Assembly: GCA_022824265.1 (NCBI GenBank)
Contig: JAJEAG010000086.1
Span: 1 to 64,000, forward strand
DNA: 64,000 nt
Direction: 5' to 3'
Source of the DNA: Candidatus Poribacteria bacterium
GTDB lineage: Bacteria > Poribacteria > WGA-4E > WGA-3G
This document shows positions 55,804-59,647 of the stretch, piece by piece. Position 1 is the first letter of the stretch. Each line of letters begins with the position of its first letter. Below the pieces are notes generated by a model. It was not told where the DNA came from, searched no databases, and saw nothing but the letters and a program-made list of their open reading frames with translations. The position numbers were made by a program, and so were the translations under genes.

Positions 55804-56607
55804 TTAGTCATAAGCACCTGGACGATGATTGCCCATCAATCTTTGTTGACGTTCTGTAGCCTGTTCCAAAATTGATTCATCAAATTGAAACCGATTCAAG
55901 TAGGGTGGATATTTCTGTGTTATCATACGGTTTGCATAATGAACTTGTAACAGATAACGTGTCTGGTTGCTTCGGTTAGCAGTACCTCTATGCCAAACTT
56001 CACTCCTGAAAATAACGACATCACCAGCATTGCATAGTATACTCTTTTCCGTAGCACCCTTCCACTCCGTTTCACCATCAGGTCGTCGTCCAGAAAGATG
56101 ACTACCGGGAACAAACTTTGTCGGTCCAAGGTCTTCATATAGGTCATCTAAGTAATAGTGTGCAGTTGTAATGAATATCGGCACCTTCACACGAGAATCT
56201 TCCAATACGTCAGCAGGAAGTGGAATAGGTATATAATCGCTATGTAGTCCTTGATCCGGTCGACCAGGTCCTGTCATCCAAGATGTCATACCAATAACAT
56301 GACAATCTCCGCCATGCACCGCTTCCGCCAACTCAATCACCGGAGATTTATCAAGATAATGTAGGAATACTGCATCACGATTAAAGGCATTATTGATATG
56401 TTTGTTGAGAAAACCAGATCCATTTTCTGGAATGCTATGCTTGTCAAAACTCGCGGGAATTGCCGTTAATTTATCCATCGCATCTCGGAGTTCTACAAGT
56501 TCTTCAGCATTAATTACCTTTGGCAAATAGGCATAACCATCTTCTTCCATTGCTTTGACTTGGTTTTCAAGATCCGGATATGCTATGAGTGGTAACGCTT
56601 CGCTCAT
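55804..56607 (-). CDS. Phytanoyl-CoA dioxygenase (PhyH) family protein
   Basis: An Fe(II)/2-oxoglutarate-dependent hydroxylase of 267 residues. His122 and Asp124 in LHSDYIP and the distal His206 in WHRGTANRS form the facial triad; Arg in NQTRYLLQVHY binds 2-oxoglutarate. The substrate is unknown; the family is often expanded in marine bacteria. A good promoter lies upstream. Confidence 0.88.
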   Translation of the reverse strand: MSEALPLIAYPDLENQVKAMEEDGYAYLPKVINAEELVELRDAMDKLTAIPASFDKHSIPENGSGFLNKHINNAFNRDAVFLHYLDKSPVIELAEAVHGGDCHVIGMTSWMTGPGRPDQGLHSDYIPIPLPADVLEDSRVKVPIFITTAHYYLDDLYEDLGPTKFVPGSHLSGRRPDGETEWKGATEKSILCNAGDVVIFRSEVWHRGTANRSNQTRYLLQVHYANRMITQKYPPYLNRFQFDESILEQATERQQRLMGNHRPGAYD

Positions 56608-56660
56608 TGTCTCATCTCCTTAAATACAACCCTATTGATGAATTGGGACATCTTCAATAC

Positions 56661-56689
56661 ATCCTAACAACTTTTTAGGGACATGTCAA
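56661..56689 (-). promoter_or_regulatory. Promoter of the PhyH-EamA pair
   Basis: On the minus strand TTGACA (56689-56684) and TAGGAT (56666-56661) are 17 bases apart, about 50 bases before the PhyH start. Beyond it, 56690-56955 is AT-rich and shows no gene. Confidence 0.6.
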
Positions 56690-56955
56690 CTAATTTATTG
56701 AATAATTCGTTATATAATGCATCCAAACATGTGTTATGTAAAGAAAATACAATTCGGCAAATCTATCCATTTATAGCAAATATCTTACATAATTCATGAT
56801 TTAGAATTTGAAATCCATAATGTTATCTTAGCTATACTATACGACTAACAGAACTATACAAAATGAACACAATGTTGAAGCCAATTGTTACATAGGAAAT
56901 TGTAATTTGCAGAATGTTGATAAAATAATATTTAAATAGTAAGGGAGTGAAAAAA

Positions 56956-57219
56956 ATGAAAAATAAAGACACAATGCAAGAAGATATGGAATCAGCAAAA
57001 GATTCAGCTATCCGCGTCCCTGGGGTAATACTGGAATCTTTACCCGGAAACCTGTTCAGCGTCCAATTAACAGAGAACGACCATAAAGTTGTAGCATACC
57101 TTGCTGGAAAAATGATGCAACACAAAATATGGGTTCTACCGGGTGATCAAGTTACCGTTGAACTTTCCCCTTACGACCTAACGCGCGGACGAATTGTCTG
57201 GAGAAATCCCGGTTCATAA
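56956..57219 (+). CDS. infA: Translation initiation factor IF-1
   Basis: An 87-residue OB-fold factor that blocks the A site during initiation. The core [18 protein letters not shown], then [17 protein letters not shown] and [16 protein letters not shown] are unmistakable. An N-terminal extension of about 12 residues (rich in Met, Asp, Glu) exceeds the usual 72-residue form. ATG 56956 lies eight bases after GGGAG. In most bacteria infA sits between secY and rpmJ; here it is alone, about 30 kb away. Confidence 0.93.
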
Positions 57220-57262
57220 ATACCTCCTAATGAACATTGAATTATTGCAATACAACACAATT

Positions 57263-57282
57263 GTGCATCCGAAAATGTGTAT
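57263..57282 (+). repeat. 20-bp direct repeat, copy 1, start of leader cassette 1
   Basis: GTGCATCCGAAAATGTGTAT is identical to the copy at 57491-57510. It is followed by a T7 tract, a CCGC/GCGG stem (57324-57337), and a short ORF with a strong ribosome site. Confidence 0.9.
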
Positions 57283-57354
57283 TAGTGAATCATTATCATT
57301 TTTTTGGTAATGGTATCCTAATGCCGCTGAATTGCGGAAAAGGAGGTATTTGTT

Positions 57355-57387
57355 ATGTTATCAAATCAGAGGAGGTGTGACACTTAG
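57355..57387 (+). CDS. Putative 10-residue leader ORF 1
   Basis: ATG at 57355 follows AAAAGGAGGT at good spacing and encodes MLSNQRRCDT before TAG. It overlaps the first palindrome at 57376. Its layout mirrors the 26-residue ORF at 57636. Whether it is translated is unknown. Confidence 0.35.
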   Translation: MLSNQRRCDT

Positions 57388-57421
57388 TGTTACGCCCTTT
57401 GGTGTGACACCAAGTGTCGCA
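57376..57421 (+). promoter_or_regulatory. Two operator-like palindromes
   Basis: TGTGACAC-TTA-GTGTTACG (57376-57394) and TGTGACAC-CAA-GTGTCGCA (57403-57421) are two 19-base imperfect palindromes with identical left halves, 27 bases apart. They could be binding sites of a dimeric regulator, or stems in the transcript. Confidence 0.5.
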
Positions 57422-57432
57422 CACTTTCTGGC

Positions 57433-57457
57433 GGGACAGAGGTATATCCTCTGTCCC
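57433..57457 (+). terminator. Ten-base-pair hairpin, possible terminator
   Basis: GGGACAGAGG (57433-57442) pairs perfectly with CCTCTGTCCC (57448-57457) around TATAT. Only a short AATTTT follows, so termination is possible but not assured. It would end leader transcript 1 ahead of cassette 2. Confidence 0.45.
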
Positions 57458-57490
57458 CAATTTTGTACTATTCCAGTAGTTTTCTTAAAA

Positions 57491-57510
57491 GTGCATCCGA
57501 AAATGTGTAT
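57491..57510 (+). repeat. 20-bp direct repeat, copy 2, start of leader cassette 2
   Basis: Identical to 57263-57282, 228 bases away. It lies directly upstream of a promoter candidate and a T7 tract, as copy 1 does, so it could be an activator site duplicated with the cassette. Confidence 0.9.
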
Positions 57511-57521
57511 AGATAGAATAT

Positions 57522-57550
57522 TTGTTATTTTTTTGAATTTGTTGTATACT
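57522..57550 (+). promoter_or_regulatory. Candidate promoter of leader cassette 2
   Basis: TTGTTA (57522-57527) and TATACT (57545-57550) have 17-base spacing. A perfect stem GGATGTC-TGTT-GACATCC (57583-57600) follows in the leader. Confidence 0.5.
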
Positions 57551-57635
57551 ATTGCATATTGAATAAATGCACGAAATTTCACGGATGTCTGTTGACATCC
57601 AACTCCATTTACATTAATACAAGGAGGTTACCATT

Positions 57636-57716
57636 ATGTTGTATCTGAACTACACCACCCTTAATCCTAACCTATTGCGTCTAAGGCGATGGTGCCTCTG
57701 TCCATTAACAATATAA
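57636..57716 (+). CDS. Putative 26-residue leader ORF 2
   Basis: ATG at 57636 follows ACAAGGAGGTTACCATT, a near-perfect ribosome site. The product MLYLNYTTLNPNLLRLRRWC plus six residues (LCPLTI) is hydrophobic with an Arg-Arg-Trp-Cys step, and resembles leader ORF 1 in its MLxxN start and Arg-Arg...Cys. The sigma-like gene starts 52 bases later. Confidence 0.45.
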   Translation: MLYLNYTTLNPNLLRLRRWCLCPLTI

Positions 57717-57768
57717 TAGATTGGAAATGGCATAGGTACCCTCGACGCTCGCTGAGGAGTCGTTATCT

Positions 57769-58143
57769 ATGTCCAATTTTAATCCCGATTTTTGGGAAAT
57801 TCCGGTCCCACCGGAATTCTTTGATCAACTTACTACGGAAGACCACCTCTGGTATCAAACCTCAAGTGACGAATATACACATATACGTCACATCAAAAGA
57901 CGAAAAGTCCTAAAACAAATTCGTCAGATTATATCTAAGGAACTCACTGACCGTCAAAACGATTGCGTTAAACTCTATTTCTATGAAGGAAAAACACAAG
58001 AGGAGATCGGTGAAATACTCGGCATCTCTCGTCGAGTCGTAAGTCAGCATCTCTTTGGAGTAACACGGGACGGGAGGAGAGTCGGCGGCGCGATAAACAA
58101 AATACGCAAATTGTGTCGCAAATTAGGAATACACTATCCGTAG
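57769..58143 (+). CDS. Sigma-70 region-4-like DNA-binding protein
   Basis: A 124-residue protein. The C-terminal half (from residue 58) is a helix-turn-helix of the sigma region 4 type: ELTDRQNDCVKLYFYEGKTQ then EEIGEILGISRRVVSQHLFG. Conserved residues 1-40 form no known domain and contain no region 2, so it cannot act as a complete sigma factor; a regulator or phage-like sigma relative is possible. GAGGAG precedes the ATG. The duplicated leader cassettes lie immediately upstream. Confidence 0.75.
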   Translation: MSNFNPDFWEIPVPPEFFDQLTTEDHLWYQTSSDEYTHIRHIKRRKVLKQIRQIISKELTDRQNDCVKLYFYEGKTQEEIGEILGISRRVVSQHLFGVTRDGRRVGGAINKIRKLCRKLGIHYP

Positions 58144-58459
58144 TTAGAATCAACGGATCTAACAGTTATTATAAGGGACTCATCATGTGGAGTAGTCTTA
58201 ATGATTCACTCGCAAGGTGAGTCCTAAATCTTACTTACCCCGAATTCAATCAAGGAAATTCGGAAATTCAACCCAAATATTACGGTCAAACACCCTACTT
58301 GCTTTAAGTCTAATCTCTTCATCATTTAGTCCAATAACGGACTCCCACCTCCAATAAATCTTCAGATTGCCAAATAACTCGTATCTGTGTTATCCTACGT
58401 ATCGTTTCTATTCCATAAGACTTACAATAATCCCGCGCAAATTGCATAAGGAGAATCAC
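58144..58459 (+). other. Gap between the sigma-like gene and the oxidoreductase
   Basis: No gene is seen. GGACTCA (58176-58182) can pair with TGAGTCC (58218-58224), possibly ending the sigma-like transcript. TTGCCA (58367-58372) and TTATCC (58390-58395) with 17-base spacing could be the promoter of the next gene; the match is weak. Confidence 0.35.
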
Positions 58460-59647
58460 ATGGCAATACGGATTGCGATCATCGGTTGTGGTGGCATGGC
58501 AAACGGACATCTCAACGCATATCTTACAATTCATAATACAGAACCCGGGAAGGTGGAACTCGTTGCAATGTGTGATGAAGTTAAAGACCGAGCAGATAAT
58601 TTCGCCAACCGCGTCAAAGAAGTAACAGGGAAAAAACCCGTTGTCTTTGATGACACTGACACAATGCTATCAACGGTCGATTTGGATGGTGCGGATATTT
58701 GCACATCGCACGCACATCACCATATCAACGCTATTAAATGTCTCAATGCTGGTGTCAACGTCATGATAGAAAAACCGATGGGTATAACCGTCAAAGCGAC
58801 CCATGCGATTATGGCAGCCGCAAATGACAATGGAAAAATCGCTGCAACCGCAGAGAACATCCGTCGTATGCCGAGTCGACGCACTGCAGAATGGCTAATG
58901 AACGACAAAAAGATACTCGGTGAAATGCGTATGTTCCACGCACAACACGCAAGTCATCGTGAACCTAACCCACAGAGTGAATGGCACTGGCGACTCGACC
59001 TTACACTCGGTGGTGGCGGCATGGTCATGGATTCAGGTGCACATTATTGTGATACAATACGTTATCTCTTCGGTGATCCCGACACCGTTTATGGACGTGT
59101 CTGCCAATTTGAGAATCTGGAGGTAACAAAAGCTGGAGAAATCGTTAAGAATGAACAAGAAGATACATGGTTCGCAACAATCAACTTCAAGACTGGAGTC
59201 ATTGGGCTGTGGACATGCACATGGGCAGCAGTAGGACATAGTTTCAATCACGTCGTATATTACGGCAGCGAAGGATGTCTGCTTGACAATGGAGACATCT
59301 TCCACGGACCATTTGAAGGCGGAGAAGTCATCCTCAAAAATGGAACACGACTCTCTATGGAAAACCTGATTGAAGAATATATGGCAAGCCTTTCTGACGA
59401 GGAGAAAAACCGACTATTTCCACATAACTTTACAGATGGTGTCGTTCTTGAATGCTACGACTTTGTTGACGCAATTGAAAACAACCGTCCACCAGAATTA
59501 GATGCAGAAGCAGGTCTGCACGCAAAATCAATATGTGAAGCTATCTACGAATCCAACGCCTGTGGACAAGCAGTCAATTATGAAGATGTAGTATCAGGCG
59601 ACATTGAGATATATCAGAAACCGATCAACGAACGGTGGGGGTTATAG
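58460..59647 (+). CDS. Gfo/Idh/MocA-family oxidoreductase
   Basis: An NAD(P)-dependent sugar or cyclitol oxidoreductase of 395 residues. IRIAIIGCGGMANGHLNAYL is the Rossmann fold, EKPMG with its Lys near residue 105 the catalytic motif, and GGGGMVMDSGAHYCDTIRYL the C-terminal domain signature with the His pair. ATG 58460 follows AAGGAG. No secretion signal is present. The MFS gene starts directly after the stop. Confidence 0.9.
   Translation: MAIRIAIIGCGGMANGHLNAYLTIHNTEPGKVELVAMCDEVKDRADNFANRVKEVTGKKPVVFDDTDTMLSTVDLDGADICTSHAHHHINAIKCLNAGVNVMIEKPMGITVKATHAIMAAANDNGKIAATAENIRRMPSRRTAEWLMNDKKILGEMRMFHAQHASHREPNPQSEWHWRLDLTLGGGGMVMDSGAHYCDTIRYLFGDPDTVYGRVCQFENLEVTKAGEIVKNEQEDTWFATINFKTGVIGLWTCTWAAVGHSFNHVVYYGSEGCLLDNGDIFHGPFEGGEVILKNGTRLSMENLIEEYMASLSDEEKNRLFPHNFTDGVVLECYDFVDAIENNRPPELDAEAGLHAKSICEAIYESNACGQAVNYEDVVSGDIEIYQKPINERWGL

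Follow-up and report, generated by a model that had tools for sequence, protein, structure and literature searches.

We consider it rather probable that the window, a stretch of 64,000 nucleotides from a Candidatus Poribacteria bacterium, holds a translation-responsive and probably autoregulated circuit, comprising a uORF switch in the leader of a small regulator gene, a step linking the regulator to a repeated 20-nt element, and a free-standing RNA termed cassette 1. The architecture of this circuit, its conservation, the linkage of its parts and the distribution of the element are read from the sequences; the switch is predicted by folding, and we infer the signal sensed, the binder of the element, the direction in which the regulator acts and the action of cassette 1. 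As judged from genome comparisons, the set of regulator, leader and cassette 1 recurs beyond the sponge-associated Poribacteria in other uncultured phyla. If true, this would constitute a translation-responsive regulon whose targets include a dedicated RNA and an initiation factor, in phyla for which no such circuit was found in the literature searched.

The features given here with window coordinates lie on the + strand, and many had been foreseen. The original prediction contained an identical 20-mer occurring twice, which was confirmed at 57263-57282 (copy 1, a putative promoter/operator of cassette 1) and at 57491-57510 (copy 2, 5' of the regulator leader). The T-tracts, stems, AGGAGGT sites and ORFs of 10 and 26 codons are all present as it stated, and the sigma region 4-like gene that it placed next (57769-58143) matches PF04545 with an E-value of 3.3e-13. 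Every single feature is short, so that repeats and tiny ORFs arising by chance in AT-rich intergenic DNA might be considered; however, they are conserved across genera and phyla, the controls were at or near zero and the structure covaries. A chance origin is already refuted by the relatives, and its probability is negligible.

The second cassette, by its position and conservation, is the leader of the regulator gene. It has a sigma-70-like promoter, TTGTTA-17-TATACT (57522..57550), the TATACT of which is kept in relatives without an element here, followed by a 5' hairpin, GGATGTC/GACATCC (57583..57600, arms at 57583 and 57594), and by a uORF of 26 codons (57636..57716) whose peptide is not conserved and whose stop lies in the loop of a hairpin, P1 (57691..57740). 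The P1 5' arm, GGTGCCTCTG (57691-57700), is inside the uORF, and the 3' arm, GGCATAGGTACC, occupies 57729-57740. In an alternative structure, P2 (57729..57773), GGCATAG (57729-57735) pairs with CTATGTC (57767-57773) across the regulator start codon. A uORF runs through the P1 5' arm, GGTRCCTCTG, in 51 of 53 distinct leaders and always stops between the arms, before GGCATAG; dinucleotide shuffles give 6.4 such stops, compared with the 51 out of 51 observed, the leaders being related and not 51 independent cases. Of 54 distinct leaders, 53 have both P2 partners, GGCATAG and CTATG[CT]C, and one has neither; a P2-like context was found at 1 of 59 other start codons checked. Covariation support for P1 and P2 is slight, since their cores hardly vary.

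Both sequence and folding place a translatable uORF over one arm of mutually exclusive structures, the arrangement of a uORF attenuator. In 48 folded leaders, a ribosome stalled at the uORF start gave probabilities of 0.96 for P1 and 0.03 for P2, with the regulator start unpaired at 0.55; with the uORF complete, P2 reached 0.90 and the unpaired start fell to 0.07. The loss of P1 is built into this test, because the ribosome block is imposed. Start-codon accessibility falls on uORF completion in 46 of the 48 leaders, and Shine-Dalgarno accessibility is the same in the two states (0.40 in both). In the unblocked fold of the window's own leader, P2 (0.52) already exceeds P1 (0.05). Completion of the uORF is predicted to occlude the regulator start codon: ribosomes that finish the uORF would hold the P1 5' arm open, and the freed GGCAUAG would pair with CUAUGYC over the start codon, turning the gene off. 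Early stalling, or failure to initiate at the uORF, would allow P1 to form and leave the start codon free, turning the gene on. In one leader (L010), some 130 nt of extra sequence containing inverted repeats lie in the P1 loop, between the uORF stop and the 3' arm, and spare both arms.

Most Poribacteria uORF peptides end in RRWCLCPL, and those of cassette 1 end in RRC or RWC, as might be expected of a classical amino-acid attenuator in which Cys, Trp or Arg codons of the peptide sense charged tRNAs. Against this, the uORF reads the P1 arm in frames 1, 0 and 2 in 38, 12 and 1 leaders, respectively, and in the other frames the same RNA core encodes GDGAS, GTSAP or KVPLP, with no run of a single amino acid. 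Furthermore, the corresponding uORF peptides of the Latescibacterota-type leaders (see below) end in SPPVR or SPECCW, and their 10-codon peptides have no clear common residue pattern. A conserved run of regulatory codons was not found among the 53 distinct leaders, in which peptide and frame vary while the RNA is kept, and amino-acid attenuation is quite improbable. A conserved leader peptide was rejected, as frames differ while the RNA is kept. The notion that small peptides act together with the regulator is likewise hard to sustain for the 26-residue ORF, because relatives use three different frames across its conserved core.

The regulator (57769..58143) has 124 amino acids and, according to the Pfam search, a homologue search and an AF2 model, contains a sigma-70 region 4 domain only. 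The PF04545 match is over the cut-off, so that the protein has the -35 recognition domain of sigma-70 factors, and the AF2 model resembles region 4 of SigL (TMt 0.81, E 0.03), its N-terminal 30 residues being of low confidence. Region 2, for -10 recognition, is absent from the 124-aa protein, no such Pfam family being matched, and NCBIfam matches are confined to the region 4 part. Like YlxM (UPF0122), the regulator has a region 4-type helix-turn-helix; nevertheless, its score of 25.2 bits to NCBIfam YlxM is far below the cut-off of 80, and it has a conserved N-terminal motif of its own, NPDFWE. It appears to be a small DNA-binding protein of region 4 fold, not a full sigma factor. Homologues at E<=1e-5 were found in 45 of 59 relatives, three of these being weak and partial-length, and a scan with 80 of 91 relatives identified homologues of 42-49% identity in Latescibacterota and relatives. 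The latter, some labelled Handelsmanbacteria, Zixiibacteriota or Gemmatimonadota, are together called Latescibacterota-type here. At three loci of genus genomes (L018, L021, L022), a gene for a Fur-like regulator, assigned by eye, is located immediately 5' of the regulator leader, which has neither element nor cassette 1 there.

The 20-nt element occurs exactly twice in the window at <=3 mismatches, against 0.01 expected in shuffles, and four places in the 4.45-Mb genome carry it at <=2 mismatches. The motif derived from 64 non-redundant Poribacteria sites is AAA[GC]TGCATCC-RAAAAT-GTGTATA, with A/T tracts 5' of it. Conservation in relatives had been set beforehand as the test that could refute the prediction; the ORFs and the repeat are kept, and the element was found at <=2 mismatches in 40 of 59 relatives, each with 1 to 9 sites, while the reversed pattern gave 2 hits in total in the same 59. 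The genes 3' of the element were read from part of the sites (30 loci and 40 further stretches). Those on the same strand in the fetched loci include cassette 1, the regulator gene with its leader and a range of further genes. Two of the protein families encoded by the latter (161-338 and 249-264 aa) match nothing in Pfam; the remainder include WD40-like repeat proteins, assigned by eye, FAD oxidases (PF01266) and an ABC-2 permease (PF12679). The element can thus be described as a genome-wide regulatory site that marks a gene set and is not specific to the cassette pair. Transcription probably starts at the element, which would then form part of the promoter, as a covarying, G-U-rich 5' hairpin directly follows it in cassette 1.

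Among the 59 relatives, 37 have both regulator and element, 14 have neither (including 3 with weak sigma matches), 5 have the regulator only and 3 the element only; among the five regulator-only genomes, G019 has a 3-mismatch copy of the element at its locus, and three loci of the deep family (L154, L156, L159) keep AGTGCATCC 5' of a cassette 1-like stretch. In family f4, both are missing from genus g7 (6 genomes) and present in genera g6, g9 and g10. This joint presence and absence lends support to the proposed binding of the regulator to the element, by which it probably activates genes, namely its own gene, that of the cassette 1 RNA and others. An unrelated transcription factor or an alternative sigma factor might instead recognize the element, the region 4 protein being one target, and the resemblance of the element to a bipartite site with upstream A/T tracts would suit this. 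The Latescibacterota-type element, however, is mainly at the regulator and cassette 1, and in f4 the element follows the regulator within one family, so that such a factor is a real possibility but the less probable one. Many genomes of a second genus have the regulator leader without a copy of the element, and autoregulation there would be absent or would use another promoter.

The logic proposed resembles that of two known systems, whiB7 and toiL, with parts that appear unrelated by the tests made. WhiB7 works together with region 4 of sigma and switches on the promoter of its own gene. The whiB7/wblC gene of Actinobacteria also has a uORF 5' of the regulator gene; according to PMC12121999, which with PMC13236596 represents the WhiB7/uORF literature found, this uORF senses several ribosome-targeting antibiotics, and amino-acid starvation is also an inducer. 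In contrast, neither the Pfam search nor the 25 best NCBIfam matches gave a WhiB iron-sulphur domain for the regulator, the Poribacteria protein itself having the region 4 fold, and the system described here would differ in start-codon occlusion (in Poribacteria), in its companion 10-codon RNA and in having IF-1 in the target set. In the topAI-yjhQP operon of E. coli, the toiL uORF is translated, the RNA alternately masks the downstream ribosome-binding site, and stalling within toiL turns the gene on, as predicted here (toiL data from PMC12121999). The gene regulated here, unlike that of toiL, encodes a DNA-binding regulator; also, absence of uORF translation is predicted to turn the gene on, whereas loss of the toiL Shine-Dalgarno site abolished topAI induction. 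Translational attenuation of ermB and ermC is similar in that a uORF stall alters downstream RNA structure and permits translation, as outlined in PMC12121999, but no conserved arrest peptide is present here. No paper on this circuit was found in literature on Poribacteria or Latescibacteria RNAs, leader peptides, regulons and infA/uORF.

Cassette 1 is, from its sequence features, a free-standing RNA gene with a mini-ORF and a terminator. A 5' hairpin (57289..57314) directly 3' of the element forms 8-9 pairs in 46 of 47 distinct sequences, with compensatory changes and many G-U pairs, and is probably transcribed because it is G-U-rich and covarying. The RNA as matched by a covariance model (57315..57463, 165.8 bits) contains a CCGC/GCGG hairpin (57324..57337; CCGC at 57324, GCGG at 57334), the conserved Shine-Dalgarno site GGAGGT (57342..57347) and the 10-codon mini-ORF MLSNQRRCDT (57355..57387), with an internal AGGAGGTG at 57370-57377 and its stop in a hairpin loop. 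Its further parts are a tandem 27-nt repeat (57374..57427), which forms two hairpins or a single long one, and an intrinsic terminator (57433..57463, hairpin 57433-57457). The structure beats all 500 shuffles on five measures, in a test where relatedness of the sequences is unaccounted for. The covariance model, built from 33 sequences, identified cassette 1 in 57 of 84 genomes of the phylum, with one strong copy each in 53 of 58 family genomes and hits also in G038, G047, G048 and G051; this count is independent of the pattern search, which presumes an AGG[AT]GGTGTG core. Peptides in the family are MLANQRRC[DG]T and variants; outside it, MLANQRWCDT, MKSPRRCDL, MELLRWCDR, MKFLRWCDR and MLKSPRWLAT occur. 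A tmRNA was rejected, as ARAGORN found no tRNA-like domain at 56500-58500. Rfam has no family that the free-standing 10-codon RNA would match: the search of 56000-59000 in the window gave 2 matches, both far below the gathering score, and that of 15 loci gave none. Cassette 1 may be a new kind of RNA. At two loci (L011, L019), a palindromic repeat around GTAGGAGCGACCTCC..GGAGGTCGCTCCTAC, probably a dispersed repeat, is located between or 5' of the cassettes.

The proposal that two leaders control the regulator holds for cassette 2, which leads the gene, but not for cassette 1. In 7 of the 17 genus genomes that were compared, the latter is found 306-530 nt 5' of the regulator and in the same orientation, and other families too have it upstream, a position compatible with an upstream attenuator whose conditional terminator would, on read-through, feed the regulator gene. 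Nevertheless, cassette 1 is elsewhere in 10 of the 17, being off the regulator's contig in 9 and at a distance of 1 Mb in G010, a closed genome, yet it is intact where distant, and its place in the Latescibacterota-type genomes is downstream of the regulator. Contig breaks may hide some links, G010 being closed. An upstream attenuator is therefore very unlikely, and cassette 1 was rejected as a regulator leader.

The more constant partner is a second gene for initiation factor IF-1 (infA; 56956..57219; PF01176, 5.8e-24; TIGR00008). The genome has two infA genes, the window copy scoring 83.8 bits and the other (G000:C19:81014-81205) 96.3 bits. This IF-1 paralog accompanies cassette 1 on one contig, in the same orientation, in all 17 genus genomes, including those where the regulator lies elsewhere and cassette 1 stays beside it. 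The matches to the IF-1 domain and to cassette 1 are separated by 104-255 nt in 13 genomes and by some 1.9 kb in 3 others; in the remaining one the gene is 3' of cassette 1. On this linkage, the window infA seems to be a lineage-specific paralog travelling with cassette 1.

Dual-function sRNAs of the SgrS/SgrT type are free-standing RNAs with a small ORF and an intrinsic terminator, and cassette 1 has all three traits. It might, as a trans-acting antisense sRNA, pair with the regulator leader and tune it. In one Latescibacterota group, and in this group only (L163, L164, L171, L180), the core CGGAGGUGAAC of the cassette 1 ORF is complementary to GUUCGCCUCCG in the uORF, a pairing matched by 2, 0, 0 and 0 of 60 shuffles, respectively. 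However, with the regulator leader as the sole target tested, own-genome pairing was no stronger than cross-genome pairing (-65.5 vs -67.4, n=11; -62.9 vs -62.3, n=26), and 12 Poribacteria pairs of cassette 1 and leader showed no consistent site. Pairing between the terminator arm and CCUCUGUCC of the leader, present in the window, is absent in G008 and does not covary, and this candidate was rejected. The antisense reading is unlikely, and pairing with the leader was discarded as a general mechanism. Cassette 1 also differs from SgrS/SgrT in its lack of a consistent pairing target, as far as the regulator leader is concerned, in an ORF that ends inside a hairpin and in its internal Shine-Dalgarno-like motif.

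In the Latescibacterota-type genomes, an equivalent of cassette 1 is located just 3' of the regulator, with element, Shine-Dalgarno site, 10 codons (MEPNTWRCAV, MKTLTSEVNA, MLHIYPEGIA or MSILNLEGIA), a stop in a hairpin and a terminator. The element occurs in this group in a form related to that of Poribacteria, and its pattern has 26 matches in 14 of 22 genomes, against 0 in the control, and 9 of those 14 carry it at both the regulator leader and cassette 1. The leaders have an intrinsic terminator in place of start-codon occlusion. In 20 of 25 leaders that could be parsed, the terminator probability increases from 0.10 when stalled to 0.63 with the uORF complete (rising in 16 of the 20, falling in none); parsing failed for L172, L173, L182, L183 and L185 and went wrong for L180 and L181, which are nevertheless included in these means. 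The predicted sign is the same in both phyla, uORF finished meaning gene off, since the terminator rises on completion as P2 does. Seemingly, start-codon occlusion serves in one phylum and a terminator in another, which allows one to ask how switches change mechanism and keep their logic.

Cassette 1 of both groups, compared by eye, shares an internal GAGG[TG] 8-12 nt before the stop, in differing frames, and a stop codon in or at a hairpin loop; a probable form from a deep Poribacteria family, MIAKQGGVSR, is without the internal motif. The short RNA would offer a strong ribosome-binding site and a 10-codon ORF, and a ribosome terminating there would sit in the hairpin, on the internal Shine-Dalgarno-like motif. 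Cassette 1 probably acts through the ribosomes it engages, not through its poorly conserved peptide. A tentative and rather doubtful extension is that it represents a regulatory RNA of a new class, one that yields a ribosome in a trapped state. Such an RNA would sequester ribosomes at initiation or termination, or report on them. Strong initiation on an ORF of about ten codons would fit this, as would a Shine-Dalgarno-like motif at 8-12 nt from a stop that is buried in a hairpin loop, production of the RNA by a dedicated regulator that is turned on by faltering translation, and the coupling of the RNA to IF-1. Literature on short ORFs, hairpins and ribosome sequestration provided nothing on this system, most results of this and the other searches being off topic. 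If true, a trapped-ribosome RNA would be a translation-homeostasis system of several uncultured phyla.

The set activated across phyla would include IF-1 and a PcfJ-like protein, to which Poribacteria would add many lineage-specific genes; that the shared targets include a translation factor is in keeping with a circuit that responds to translation. In the window, a degenerate copy of the element that keeps TGCATCC-N6-GTGT (56717..56736) precedes the infA paralog. Within Poribacteria, the element is 5' of the paralog in this genome (G000), G009 and G002 only, five Poribacteria infA loci not fitted by the IF-1 pattern having been left out. Of 14 Latescibacterota-type infA loci examined, among them L281 at a contig end, 8 have the element upstream at near-constant distance and one more has a near match; four further loci of this type were left out for the same reason. 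Latescibacterota-type sites also precede infA in G103 and L238, and a gene for a PcfJ-like protein in G095 and G098. Homology links the PcfJ-like proteins of two Latescibacterota-type genomes with that of a Poribacteria genome (E 2e-82 and 1e-71). At L239 (G098), a short ORF and a terminator seemingly lie between the element and the PcfJ-like gene, possibly a second attenuator in the regulon.
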